DNA of 38,439 nucleotides from an uncultured Candidatus Poseidoniales archaeon. Lineage in GTDB: Archaea > Thermoplasmatota > Poseidoniia > Poseidoniales > Thalassarchaeaceae. The stretch covers positions 1 through 38,439 of the forward strand of contig CABXQY010000005.1 in the NCBI GenBank assembly GCA_902514485.1, given 5' to 3'. Both the position numbers and the translations under genes were made by a program. Positions 29,146 to 38,439 of this stretch are shown here, piece after piece; within the stretch, counting starts at the first letter, position 1, and the number at the start of each line of letters is the position of its first letter. The notes below the pieces were generated by a model, which made no database searches, was not told the origin of the DNA, and was given only the letters and a program-made list of their open reading frames with translations.

Positions 29146-29739
29146 ATGAGCCCAAGTGACTATTTCCAACCATTTATTGATTGGGCAGATGGTTTTGGTC
29201 TACTTGGATTGGCTTTGGTTTCAGCCTCTGAGGCTGCTTTACAACCAATCCCTCCTGATGTTTTAGTAATACCTATGGTGGTTGAAGCAGATAGTTTTTT
29301 ATCAATATCAATAATAGTATTGGTCGCAACACTTAGTAGTGTTTTTGGGGCATTTATTGGATATGCCATAGGGTACTATGGCGGAATCCCGATATTAGGG
29401 AAATTTGTCAGTCAAGCCAACATAAATCGTCTTAATTCTTTAACCGAGAAATATGGTGCTACTGGAGTATTTATCGCGGCTGTTTCTCCAATACCTTACA
29501 AAGCATTAGCTTGGATTGCTGGTGCCGGCCGTATGGATATCCGACTTTTTGCATTAGCAGGTTTTTTTGGTCGAAGTATTAGATTTGGTTCTATTGGGAT
29601 ACTGATTGGAGTTTATGGTGAATCTGTAAAGAGCTCATTTACATGGTTAAATTTCAGTATTATGGCTATGATTTGTATCATTATCTCAATTCCATTAGTT
29701 AATTGGTGGAATTCATTAAATGTGGAGACTTCTCAATGA
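29146..29739 (+). CDS. DedA/YqaA-like (SNARE-associated/VTT) membrane protein
   Basis: SEAALQPIPPDVLVIPMVV, GAFIGYAIGYYGG, FIAAVSPIPYKALAWIAGAGRMDIRLF. Track start at 29044. Confidence 0.8.
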   Translation: MSPSDYFQPFIDWADGFGLLGLALVSASEAALQPIPPDVLVIPMVVEADSFLSISIIVLVATLSSVFGAFIGYAIGYYGGIPILGKFVSQANINRLNSLTEKYGATGVFIAAVSPIPYKALAWIAGAGRMDIRLFALAGFFGRSIRFGSIGILIGVYGESVKSSFTWLNFSIMAMICIIISIPLVNWWNSLNVETSQ

Positions 29740-31871
29740 TAAGGTCCCAAGTAATTTCGTTTCTGATAGTATTAATTTTCATTACACAACCTTTTGCATT
29801 ATCTCCAAATAATTCTATTACTCGGTTCGAAGAGAACAACTCTAATGTCGATGTAAGATATTCTATTGAGTATACAGATAACCACACTACAGTAGAGATT
29901 GGTCCTTCTTCTAGAAAAGCCATATTAGAGATGCCTGGTGGCCATAATACTACCTATAGATTACCATTAGTTGTTGCTTTACATGGTTTTACTAATTCAG
30001 GTTCTTTTGTTTCTTCATACTTTGATTTAATAGAAAGTGTACATAAAAACGGTCATCTTTTATTGAGACCAGATGGGTCTTACAGTGCTACTGGTCAGAG
30101 GTACTGGAATGCCACTGATGCATGCTGTAATATTTGGGGTGAAGATGTTGATGATGTTTCTTGGCTGACAGTTTTGATAAATGAGGCAATTACATATCAC
30201 GGCGCAGATCCTGAGGGAATAATACTCGTGGGCCATTCCAATGGTGGTTTCATGGCTCATCGTATGGCCTGTGAAAGAGGCGATATGATCAGAGCTGCAA
30301 TATCTCTTGCAGGAGCCACATATTCTGATTTTAATGATTGTCAAAATACAGGTTACCCCAACATCTTACAAATACATGGAACCCTAGACTCTGTAATTCA
30401 GTATGATGGTGGTTCATTATTTGGTGGCAACTATCCCTCAGCGCCTCAAACAGTTAATTTTTGGGCGAATCGCTCAGGATGTGATACCTCTCTAACTTTG
30501 ATAGATGAATTAGATATTATTTCTCCTAGTGGACAAAATGATACGATTGAATATGAATATCTAAATTGTAACTCAGGTAATCGTGTTTCTCTTTGGAAAA
30601 TTCCAGATGGAGGTCATCTACCCGCTGTTTCTTCCGCAAGTGGTGATGATTTCGCTGAAACAATACTAAATTGGGGTCTAACTGGTTATTTTCCTGATTC
30701 TGATGGAGATGGTTTCAGAGATGATGTAGATGAATTCCCCCATGATCCTCTTGAAAATCAAGATACTGATGGCGATGGAGTAGGAGATAATTCTGATGCC
30801 TTTCCTTATGATTCCAATGAGACATTAGATTCTGATGGTGATGGCGTTGGAGATAATTCTGATGCATTTCCCAATGATTCGACTGAAACAGTAGATTCAG
30901 ACAACGATGGAGTGGGAGATAATTCAGATTCTTTCCCTAACGATTCAACTGAAACAGTAGATTCAGATAATGATGGAGTAGGGGATAATTCTGATGAGTT
31001 CCCAAATGATTCTAGTGAAATTTCAGATACTGATAGAGATGGCATTGGGGATAATTCTGATCTTTTCCCTCTTAATCCGAACGAATATCTAGATTCAGAT
31101 GGTGATGGAGTAGGAGATAATTCTGATATGTTCCCATATAATCCATTAGAGAACATGGATTCTGATGGCGATGGTATTGGAGATAACTCAGATGCTTTCC
31201 CTTATGATTCAAATGAGACTTTAGATTCAGATAATGATGGAGTAGGAGATAATTCTGATATGTTCCCATATAATCCAGGTGAAACAATTGATTCAGATAA
31301 TGATGGAGTGGGAGATAATTCTGATGTTTTCCCTCTTAATCCGAACGAATATCTAGATTCAGATAATGATGGAGTAGGAGATAACTCAGATGCTTTCCCT
31401 TATGATTCAAATGAGACTTTAGATTCAGATAATGATGGAGTAGGAGATAATTCCGATGCTTTCCCTAATGATTCCAATGAGGTATCTGATTTAGATGGTG
31501 ATGGCGTTGGAGATAATTTAGATATGTTCCCCGAAGATTCTAATGAAACAATTGATTTTGACAATGATGGCGTTGGAGATAATTCAGATATGTTTCCAAA
31601 TAATCCTAGTGAATATTTAGATTCAGATGGTGATGGCGTTGGAGATAATTCTGATGCCTTTCCTTATGATTCCAATGAGACATTAGATTCTGATGGTGAT
31701 GGTGTTGGAGATAATTCTGATTTTTTCCCTACAGATTCGGAAAGATGGGTTAAATCTGACACTCAAAATCCCTTACCAATATTCTACCTATTAGCTTTAA
31801 TTTCATTTCTCTTTTTAGTATCTTATTATTCTCCATCTAGTCGGTCTATTGAAGATGATATAGATGATTAA
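29736..31871 (+). CDS. Secreted PHB-depolymerase/LpqC-like esterase with TSP3-like repeats and C-terminal TM anchor
   Basis: Signal peptide, LPLVVALHGFTNSG, GHSNGGFMAHRMAC nucleophile elbow, 16 DSDGDGVGDNSD repeats, TM IFYLLALISFLFLVSYY; ATGA overlap with upstream gene. Confidence 0.82.
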   Translation: MIRSQVISFLIVLIFITQPFALSPNNSITRFEENNSNVDVRYSIEYTDNHTTVEIGPSSRKAILEMPGGHNTTYRLPLVVALHGFTNSGSFVSSYFDLIESVHKNGHLLLRPDGSYSATGQRYWNATDACCNIWGEDVDDVSWLTVLINEAITYHGADPEGIILVGHSNGGFMAHRMACERGDMIRAAISLAGATYSDFNDCQNTGYPNILQIHGTLDSVIQYDGGSLFGGNYPSAPQTVNFWANRSGCDTSLTLIDELDIISPSGQNDTIEYEYLNCNSGNRVSLWKIPDGGHLPAVSSASGDDFAETILNWGLTGYFPDSDGDGFRDDVDEFPHDPLENQDTDGDGVGDNSDAFPYDSNETLDSDGDGVGDNSDAFPNDSTETVDSDNDGVGDNSDSFPNDSTETVDSDNDGVGDNSDEFPNDSSEISDTDRDGIGDNSDLFPLNPNEYLDSDGDGVGDNSDMFPYNPLENMDSDGDGIGDNSDAFPYDSNETLDSDNDGVGDNSDMFPYNPGETIDSDNDGVGDNSDVFPLNPNEYLDSDNDGVGDNSDAFPYDSNETLDSDNDGVGDNSDAFPNDSNEVSDLDGDGVGDNLDMFPEDSNETIDFDNDGVGDNSDMFPNNPSEYLDSDGDGVGDNSDAFPYDSNETLDSDGDGVGDNSDFFPTDSERWVKSDTQNPLPIFYLLALISFLFLVSYYSPSSRSIEDDIDD
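30696..31751 (+). repeat. Coding tandem repeat, 16 x 66 bp (22 aa, TSP3-like calcium-binding motif)
   Basis: In-frame units D-[ST]-D-x-D-G-x-G-D-N-S-D-x-F-P-x-[DN]-[SP]-x-E-x-x, counted by reading the translation. Confidence 0.92.
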
Positions 31872-35672: not shown

Positions 35673-36473
35673 TTGAACTCATTCAATAGAATAACTGTTG
35701 AACTAGGGCCTCTCCGACAATATATGGTAGACCCTACAGTTGTGTTAATTCATTCTCAAGGGAACTCCGAAGGTCCTCTCCGTGAGGCAATAGAATTTTA
35801 TAATCCGAAAATGGTTTTTCTTATTAGCAATCATGGTGCTAGTGGTGCTCTTTTAGTAAACAAGCATCTTGAGGAGAAAGATACGAATAAACTTGGAAGA
35901 TTTGTTAAAGACATTGAGTATTCGGAATTACTATTCATTGAAGATGCCTTCAGTAGCGACACAGTATTACAAATGTTTACAGAAATAGATAATGCGAAAA
36001 ATAAAGCTAAAGAGATATCAGATTCACAGGAATTGAAATTCTATGCAGGAATTTCGGGAGGGACGAAGATGATGGTTGTTGGTTCTGCTTTGGCCGCAAT
36101 AAATGGCGGTATATCTACTTATTACGTGAATAAGGAGAGTCTAGAGGACTCAGACAATTTATTGTTAGAACTCGATTTTTTGAATGATTTAATGTCGACT
36201 ATATCTTGGCTTCGTGAACATTATGCAAACGAGAAAAACTTAGCTTATCTAGAAGAAGTCATCCGTCGTGATAAAAACAGATTATCGACGAATGCTACAG
36301 AAATCGCAGAATCAATGAAGCCAATAACTGAGAAATCGGTAAGGAATTCTATGAGGAAGTTGAAGATCAGATCACTAATTACATATGATGAATCCAAGAA
36401 ACCTTATCAATACAAACCTACTCAATTAGGGAAATATGTTGTAAAAATGTTCTATAATGGCCAAAATGAATGA
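35673..36473 (+). CDS. CARF-like sensor domain + winged-helix (HTH) putative regulator
   Basis: TVVLIHSQGNSEGPLREAIEFYNPKMVFLIS; FYAGISGGTKMMVVGSALAAINGGISTYYV (GGTK motif); C-terminal LSTNATEIAESMKPITEKSVRNSMRKLKIRSLI..TQLGKYVVKMF. TTG start; alternative ATG 35724. Confidence 0.7.
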   Translation: MNSFNRITVELGPLRQYMVDPTVVLIHSQGNSEGPLREAIEFYNPKMVFLISNHGASGALLVNKHLEEKDTNKLGRFVKDIEYSELLFIEDAFSSDTVLQMFTEIDNAKNKAKEISDSQELKFYAGISGGTKMMVVGSALAAINGGISTYYVNKESLEDSDNLLLELDFLNDLMSTISWLREHYANEKNLAYLEEVIRRDKNRLSTNATEIAESMKPITEKSVRNSMRKLKIRSLITYDESKKPYQYKPTQLGKYVVKMFYNGQNE

Positions 36474-36480
36474 TATTTCA

Positions 36481-36499
36481 CGGAAGTGATTTACTTCCG
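36481..36499. promoter_or_regulatory. Perfect inverted repeat CGGAAGT-N5-ACTTCCG
   Basis: 7-bp arms, 5-nt spacer, directly after the CARF-like gene stop; shares TTCCGA with the second inverted repeat. Confidence 0.55.
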
Positions 36500-36540
36500 A
36501 TTTGGATAATTTGGGGCAAAAAAACATTGAATTAGCCCTT

Positions 36541-36568
36541 TTCCGATACTCTATTATTTACATCGGAA
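36541..36568. promoter_or_regulatory. Inverted repeat TTCCGAT-N14-ATCGGAA around an AT-rich TATA-like stretch
   Basis: Spacer ACTCTATTATTTAC; lies 40 nt upstream of the 110-aa ORF. Confidence 0.5.
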
Positions 36569-36608
36569 GGAATTGGTTAGTAATAGAACTCAAACTTCGT
36601 AATAATTA

Positions 36609-36941
36609 ATGAGCCGAAAAAGCATCCACCCAACCAATCATGCTGTAGAACGTTTTGAGGAGAGAGTTCTCCCTCAACTTCCAGAATCTCAAAGGATAAT
36701 AATGCAGAAGAAAGAGAAAATCCGTCATACTCTTTACAAAATCACTCGGAGTATTGATATTGAAGAGGAGAGTAATTTAGCGATACATGTTAATGCCTTT
36801 TTAATTTTAAAGGGAAACCCGCCGATTCCTTTGACATTAGTTATTCATCCATTAAAAAAAATATTGCTTACTCTCTATATCTCACCTAATTGGGAAAATA
36901 TAGGTTCTCAAGAAAATCCTACCTGGAGGTTTTGTTTGTGA
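36609..36941 (+). CDS. Uncharacterised 110-aa protein with HxxxRFxER motif
   Basis: HPTNHAVERFEERVLPQLPESQ...LTLVIHPLKKILLTLYISPNWEN; overlaps viperin GTG (GTGA). Confidence 0.7.
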   Translation: MSRKSIHPTNHAVERFEERVLPQLPESQRIIMQKKEKIRHTLYKITRSIDIEEESNLAIHVNAFLILKGNPPIPLTLVIHPLKKILLTLYISPNWENIGSQENPTWRFCL

Positions 36942-37849
36942 GTCAATTGCCACTATCTGTAAACTGGCATTTTTGGCCATGGTGCAACTACGGCTGCAAA
37001 TTTTGTTTTGCTAGATTTGAAGATATCCCTAGAGCTGATCGTTTACCAAAAGAAGTTGCAATAACCATACCCGAAATGCTTGCTGATGCAGGAGCAAATA
37101 AGATTACTTTCGTTGGTGGGGAACCAACGCTTTGCCCTTATTTAGGGGATTTACTTGCAGCGTCCAAAGATGTCGGTCTAACTACTTGTATTGTTTCAAA
37201 TGCAACAGGATTAACAGAGAAGTTTCTTGATGAGTTTGCACACCTAATCGATTGGATAGGAATATCTATTGACGCTTCAAATGATAAAATCCACAAAGAA
37301 ATTGGTCGAGGTATGCGTGGTGATTTAGCCAGACAACGAAGTCACCATTTAGAGCAAGCAAAGCAAGTATGGAGGAGTTGTGTGCAGCGCGGTATTCGAA
37401 TGAAACTAAACACAGTTGTTTGTAAATCAAATATAGATGATAATATGTCAAATCTAGTTTTAGAATTAAACCCTGAGCGTTGGAAAATTTTTGAAGTGCT
37501 TCCAGTAGAAGGTCAAAACGATGGAGATGTTGATGAATTATTACTTGATGACGGAGAATTTGAAACCTGGGTCGATAGGCATTCATGGGTTGCTGAGAAA
37601 GGAATTCAGTTTGTACCAGAAAGTAATGATCTGATGCGTGGGTCTTATGCTATGCTCGATGCTCTTGGTCGCTTTTATTCTAATGTAAATGGGGGGCACT
37701 CATATGGTCCTTCTATACTTGACATCGGAGTCAAAAACGCTTGGGAAAAAAATATTTTTCTTGAAGATAGATTCCATAATCGAGGAGGATTATATGAATG
37801 GGGTTCCAGCAATGTTAACCTTCCAATAATAGGTCAGGGTAGTGATTAG
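36938..37849 (+). CDS. Prokaryotic viperin-like radical SAM protein (putative ddhNTP synthase)
   Basis: SVNWHFWPWCNYGCKFCFA, ITFVGGEPTL, LNPERWKIFEVLPVEGQN, FVPESNDLMRGSYAMLDALGRF, SILDIGV, RGGLYEW colinear with animal viperin. GTG start with GGAGGT 7 nt upstream. Confidence 0.88.
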   Translation: MSQLPLSVNWHFWPWCNYGCKFCFARFEDIPRADRLPKEVAITIPEMLADAGANKITFVGGEPTLCPYLGDLLAASKDVGLTTCIVSNATGLTEKFLDEFAHLIDWIGISIDASNDKIHKEIGRGMRGDLARQRSHHLEQAKQVWRSCVQRGIRMKLNTVVCKSNIDDNMSNLVLELNPERWKIFEVLPVEGQNDGDVDELLLDDGEFETWVDRHSWVAEKGIQFVPESNDLMRGSYAMLDALGRFYSNVNGGHSYGPSILDIGVKNAWEKNIFLEDRFHNRGGLYEWGSSNVNLPIIGQGSD

Positions 37850-37932
37850 TATGATTTCGAATATTATTGCGATTTCCGGAGAATACCTCATAAGAGTTGA
37901 GCCAACAGCAAGTTATCTTGGGAGGGAAGACT

Positions 37933-38439
37933 ATGTCTGAAGAATCAGAATTTGGCAAAGGCTTTGCTGATGATCACGACGATTGGGGGATGAACGTTAA
38001 CCCAGAGAAATTGAACACTCTCAATTGCCTGAATGGCCATCTCTCTGCCGAGGAAGATTACTATCGAGATCCTCGAAGAAGACCCCGGTTCACTTTTTAT
38101 GCTGTGAGTGAAAAGTTACCCCCTGACAATTTCAATATCGAACGACTAATGTCATCTCAAGACATTCGCCCTGATGATTTGAAGAAATTAAGCGAAGGAG
38201 GGGTTCGCACTGTTAGACACATTCGAAAAGTGGGTGTAGATGAGCTTGTCAAATCATTAGGCCTTCATTCAAGTATGCGTTATGCATTGAATAGTATCCT
38301 CGATTCTCTCCCACAACCTTCTGCTTGGGCCCGAGTGGCCAAGAATAGAGTTACAGATCCATTTCGTATTCGCCTACACAAGGATTCTGTTGGGGTTCCA
38401 CCCCGCTGGAGTGAAGGTAATTTCCAAGTTGAAATAGAA
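37933..38439 (+). CDS. N-terminal part of a hypothetical protein, truncated by the window end
   Basis: Own translation MSEESEFGKGFADDHDDWGMNVNPEKLNTLNCLNGHLSAEEDYYRDPRRRPRFTFYAVSEKLPPDNF...DLKKLSEGGVRTVRHIRKVGVDELVKSLGL; GGAGGGA upstream; open to end, HhH-like stretch. Confidence 0.7.
   Translation, partial: MSEESEFGKGFADDHDDWGMNVNPEKLNTLNCLNGHLSAEEDYYRDPRRRPRFTFYAVSEKLPPDNFNIERLMSSQDIRPDDLKKLSEGGVRTVRHIRKVGVDELVKSLGLHSSMRYALNSILDSLPQPSAWARVAKNRVTDPFRIRLHKDSVGVPPRWSEGNFQVEIE

Follow-up and report, generated by a model that had tools for sequence, protein, structure and literature searches.

Interferon induces human viperin; what induces the viperins of prokaryotes is, to our knowledge, largely an open matter. 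Prokaryotic viperins (pVip) are radical SAM enzymes with a CxxxCxxC motif, and nucleotide kinases are encoded nearby in several relatives. In Mokosh, an SF1 helicase (MkoA) and a PLD nuclease (MkoB) share one operon, and the MkoA of type I Mokosh bears a protein kinase domain. Regulators that join a CARF domain to a winged helix (wHTH) are represented by Csa3, a transcription factor of type I-A CRISPR loci with an N-terminal CARF Rossmann domain and a C-terminal winged helix (PDB 2wte, 6wxq, 6w11), and by the PADLOC CARF3-clade CARF-HTH proteins (PDLC01866 and relatives), for which no link to viperin was found in the accessible literature. For type II/III CoCoNuT systems, it has been proposed that a CARF regulator switches an operon encoding nucleases and a UPF1-like SF1 helicase, and that RNA ends bearing a cyclic phosphate are the signal, in a paper that names neither viperin nor Mokosh (PMC11090510). 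Asgard archaea have been proposed as the source of eukaryotic viperin (PMC11291487).

Here we describe the end of a 38,439-nt stretch of DNA (the window) from a Poseidoniales archaeon whose genome bin is 53% complete. We put the probability at roughly 0.6 that this end is the front of an inducible archaeal antiviral operon under the control of a CARF-wHTH regulator; we infer the ligand, the sign of regulation and the antiviral activity of the operon. Judged on the open literature, such control of a viperin/Mokosh-like operon would be a new variant within known elements (CARF regulators, viperin and Mokosh). No description of a viperin-CARF pairing was found in open-access papers, and an earlier one in subscription papers is possible; open-access papers on Asgard and archaeal defence describe viperin and Mokosh with the term CARF absent, and one on WYL regulators mentions viperin and CARF only in passing.

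Gene content of the locus

Three forward-strand genes stand at the end of the window, encoding a 249-aa CARF-wHTH regulator (35724-36473), a 110-aa small protein without known family (36609-36941) and viperin, a radical SAM enzyme (36938-37849). The same gene order occurs at locus L012, from another family of the order, where the CARF protein, the small protein and viperin are 54%, 49% and 79% identical, respectively, to those of the window. The regulator more plausibly starts at ATG 35724 than at TTG 35673, because the L012 and L044 homologues begin there and the matching upstream stretch of L012 has an in-frame stop. On side-by-side reading, a near-identical stretch, AATAACTGTTGAACTAG (35690-35706, forward strand), lies 5' of this ATG in the window, L012 and L044; it is non-coding in L012 and may be a leader or an operator.

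The third gene scores 267.7 bits against the NCBIfam viperin profile NF038283 (cut-off 180), matches the PADLOC pVip profiles and solved viperins, and carries the radical SAM motif as CNYGCKFC at residue 15; it is thus identified as a viperin, and is predicted to produce ddh-nucleotides. Its GTG start (36938) overlaps the stop of the small ORF by 4 nt (GTGA; ATGA in L012), which makes translational coupling plausible. The small protein itself matched no family in profile searches and no PDB fold reliably (model pLDDT 72), and a RelE/HigB-like fold was considered and found unsupported. We regard as very improbable a toxin-antitoxin-like or enzyme-partner relation between the small protein and viperin that stands apart from CARF signalling: the overlap, the conservation of the pair in L012 and a helices-then-strands topology in the low-confidence model speak for such a pair, but the small protein offers no family or fold to support it, and its gene was seen only in Poseidoniales and was absent from the other viperin loci inspected.

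The regulator and its candidate operators

The regulator matches many PADLOC CARF/Csx1 profiles (E about 1e-12), and its GGT..M motif is invariant across 8 homologues. Its AF2 model (pLDDT 83) matched the cA4-bound Csa3 structure 6wxq in Foldseek (E 2.9e-9) and Csa3 2wte in VIA (Z 15.4, 206 residues). The protein is accordingly modelled as a CARF Rossmann fold followed by a winged helix, Csa3-like across its full length, and the fold bears out the CARF-wHTH assignment made in a preliminary description of this locus, with the profiles agreeing on its CARF part. At 16.7 bits against the NCBIfam Csa3 profile, far under the 60.2 cut-off, it is not Csa3 proper by sequence score. It also differs from Csa3 in its setting, since it adjoins viperin in a window without a CRISPR array and in an order without detected Cas10. 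The viperin-adjacent regulators of Asgard and Thermoplasmatota matched the CARF3-clade profiles (E 4e-84 to 2e-8); unlike these viperin-paired regulators, PDLC01866 names no partner or function.

The intergenic stretch 36474-36608, which had been singled out as the place where the regulator might bind, does hold a conserved candidate operator. This inverted repeat, CGGAAGT-N5-ACTTCCG (36481-36499), contains ACTTCCGAT (36493-36501), an exact 9-mer that lies directly behind the CARF gene in the window, L012 and L044 and has no other exact copy in those sequences. A second candidate, TTCCGAT-N14-ATCGGAA (36541-36568), surrounds a TATA-like stretch (36552-36560), and a single half-site of it is kept in L012. 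Between the CARF and small genes both inverted-repeat patterns occur, once each in the window and in 0/100 window shuffles; shuffling the gap nevertheless yields a perfect 7-nt inverted repeat in 19% of cases, and at least two in 7%. Because symmetry of this kind is within chance for the gap, it is the conservation of ACTTCCGAT in three genomes that carries the weight.

The first repeat could instead act in RNA, as a hairpin closing the CARF transcript at its 3' end, given its place directly after the CARF stop codon, its 7-bp stem and 5-nt loop, and the ease with which repeats of this size arise in gap shuffles. We think this quite unlikely: the repeat is not followed by a T-run, a terminator scan lists none there, and the half-site recurs downstream, twice around the TATA-like stretch.

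Co-occurrence of CARF regulators and viperin in archaea

The viperin survey comprised 32 archaeal loci, from 10/318 Poseidoniales genomes, 13/227 Asgard genomes (14 loci) and 8 further genomes of other Thermoplasmatota; all the locus counts that follow are limited by kinship between loci, by the incompleteness of bins and by contig ends. A CARF gene lies at most three genes from viperin in 11/32 loci, spread over Poseidoniales, other Thermoplasmatota and Asgard (the window and L012; L122, L124 and L125; L035, L037, L064 and L067; L066 and L072), with L020 left out since its CARF gene is six genes away. The remaining 21/32, some of them cut by contig ends, lack a CARF gene within that distance. 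Co-conservation of regulator and viperin, set beforehand as the test on which the preliminary description would stand or fall, thus held across phyla.

Within Asgard, four CARF genes were seen within two genes of viperin against about 0.015 expected (12 CARF matches in 13 genomes; kinship ignored). In G318, G360 and G355, the exactly one CARF match of this kind in each genome is the viperin neighbour. Two architectures, CARF3-wHTH and wHTH-CARF_m5, were found divergent beside viperin, and the gap between divergent partners is only about 50-110 nt. The domain-swapped regulators (N-terminal wHTH, C-terminal CARF_m5) are at L066:8357-9076 and L072:8759-9478, divergent beside Asgard viperins without a helicase module. 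One apparent third Poseidoniales adjacency, in G202, with CARF and viperin both at contig ends, was withdrawn because the G211 viperin, a close relative, is preceded by a different gene, of 194 aa, and because the flank of the CARF gene has its match in another contig.

We considered whether CARF, viperin and the helicase/PLD genes described below are simply independent genes gathered in mobile defence islands, with the CARF protein regulating itself or something else. Viperin is indeed sparse in Poseidoniales, other defence genes adjoin other viperins (e.g. the Piwi protein gene of L069), and on the viperin tree about nine changes of CARF label are needed and the clustering is not significant, which fits repeated gain or loss and equally a loose association. 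Against this, direct adjacency recurs in several lineages far above the expected rate, equal gene order and a conserved motif are found in two families, and divergent pairs are closely spaced; we consider gathering in islands unlikely. No CARF relative was found on plasmids, and the four of eight plasmid viperin loci examined (three bacterial, one methanogen) had neither a CARF gene nor a helicase/PLD module; no viperin relative was found on viral contigs.

Several neighbourhoods seen in the survey merit mention in their own right. At L069:1390-4801 an Asgard viperin is divergent beside an 806-aa Piwi-domain protein. A PF00696 amino-acid-kinase-family (UMP-kinase-like) protein follows Asgard viperins at L064:10644-11366, L067:1419-2135 and L065:3921-4610, the place held by a P-loop kinase in Poseidoniales. 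In four Poseidoniales genomes (L040-L043, e.g. L041:337-2032) a different CARF-like gene (232-237 aa) directly precedes, in the same orientation, a DHH-phosphoesterase-like gene (287-290 aa; DHH by eye).

The downstream helicase and nuclease module

In L012, viperin is followed by genes for a 198-aa P-loop kinase, an SF1 helicase, a 451-aa protein without known family and a PLD nuclease. The helicase matches PADLOC MkoA (E 3e-97; 1e-78 for the L035 helicase), and the nuclease matches the PLDc_2 and DrmC/MkoB profiles. In the window, the Mokosh-like helicase gene comes directly after viperin (37933-38439, forward strand, open at the contig end); its N-terminal 169 aa share 89% identity with the L012 helicase, and the counterpart of the nuclease lies beyond the contig end. 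The operon is consequently larger than the three genes first proposed, as the module that follows viperin in full relatives starts within the window, and of the proposed coupled two-gene unit ending in viperin, coupling to the small gene stands as plausible and the end at viperin does not, given the helicase ATG at 37933. The viperin-helicase gap (37852-37932) is likely a deletion scar of the viperin-associated kinase gene that is intact in L012: its first part (37852-37881, forward strand) reads MISNIIAISG and the L012 kinase begins MVSSQVIALSG, a reading made by inspection of a remnant that global alignment alone did not place.

An MkoA-like SF1 helicase and a PLD nuclease in one operon are shared with Mokosh. 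Unlike Mokosh, an extra gene without known family separates the two here, and, unlike type I MkoA, the L012 and L035 helicase proteins showed no protein-kinase domain in a Pfam scan. The radical SAM signature and the nearby nucleotide kinases of relatives are features in common with other pVip, from which this viperin differs in its putative control by a CARF regulator and in the helicase/PLD module downstream.

Helicase loci with viperin are the window, L012, L013, L035, L037, L064, L067, L071 and L122 (several truncated), and those without viperin on the contig are L099, L100, L101, L102, L103 and L129. A CARF gene is present, with or without viperin, at 11/12 helicase/PLD loci with a readable flank, the exception being L013; L071, L102 and L103, cut by contig ends, are left out of the 12. 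The presence of CARF in helicase loci without viperin means that it may work for the module no less than for viperin.

The regulator may accordingly belong to the Mokosh-like helicase-X-PLD module, viperin being an extra effector that came to lie between the promoter and the helicase gene, an explanation that overlaps our main one and that we rate somewhat short of even odds. It draws on the four readable CARF-bearing loci without viperin on the contig (L099, L100, L101 and L129), from which viperin may not be the regulator's main target, and on L099, L100 and L122, which additionally hold a CARF_m1 gene and a PIN-like effector gene, the latter matching the remainder of a CARF_m1-PIN effector. 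It does not account for L066 and L072, where a CARF regulator adjoins viperin and the helicase module is missing, nor for L124 and L125, where CARF is likewise close to viperin and the module again missing.

Ligand and proposed mechanism

The window showed no CRISPR-like array of direct repeats, as the preliminary description had stated, and Cas10 was found in 0/309 Poseidoniales genomes, with positive controls detected. Cas10 was present in 2/10 selected genomes. Since bins are incomplete, absence is weak evidence for any one genome and strong across the order. A ligand made by type III CRISPR, be it cA3, cA4 or cA6 (the cyclic oligoadenylates named in the preliminary description), is therefore unlikely. 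A search for SMODS cyclases returned matches in G318 and G319 that may be CCA-adding enzymes, because their frames are about 470 aa long and archaeal control genomes match too.

By analogy with CoCoNuT, RNA ends with cyclic phosphate are a lead for the signal here. The likeness lies in the CARF regulator and the SF1 helicase with nucleases; CoCoNuT's CnuB/McrB GTPase was not among the scanned operon genes of L012 and L035, and the window operon is truncated. Tentatively, and with the odds against so specific a proposal, we suggest that in these archaea without Cas10 the CARF-wHTH protein may sense a non-CRISPR nucleotide signal (cyclic-phosphate RNA ends or viperin's own ddh-nucleotides) and switch on one operon that yields chain-terminating nucleotides and also breaks down nucleic acid.

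The antiviral operon under CARF-wHTH control remains the reading we prefer, on account of the full-length Csa3-like fold, the co-location in 11/32 loci, the Asgard excess and the two architectures, together with the L012 gene order, ACTTCCGAT in three genomes and the overlap of the small gene with viperin. Four points tell against it: no ligand synthase was found (Cas10 in 0/309 Poseidoniales genomes), 21/32 viperins have no CARF gene close by, CARF also accompanies the helicase/PLD module where viperin is missing, and the inverted repeats taken by themselves are within chance. The original notion of viperin under a nucleotide-signal regulator is thus kept, through the regulator's fold and the recurrent co-location, and has lost its three-gene extent. 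In the proposed mechanism, the CARF domain would bind a nucleotide signal of infection and the wHTH would bind ACTTCCGAT-type sites between the CARF and small genes; ligand binding would then either relieve repression (two half-sites flank the TATA-like stretch) or activate the promoter. The operon would yield viperin, whose ddh-nucleotides would stop viral polymerases, and the helicase/PLD nuclease would attack viral nucleic acid alongside it.

On this mechanism, cells may reserve viperin for times when an alarm signal, a nucleotide, reaches the regulator. A recurrent pairing of ligand-sensing regulator and viperin in Thermoplasmatota and Asgard would suggest signal-controlled viperin outside eukaryotes, would extend CARF signalling to lineages in which Cas10 went undetected and would link viperin and Mokosh-like nucleases in one operon; the locus offers a concrete promoter and regulator for study.

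Elsewhere in the window (29703-31871), a secreted esterase-like protein carries a long run of DxDxDGVGDNSDxFP repeats that, by eye, resemble thrombospondin type 3 calcium-binding repeats.
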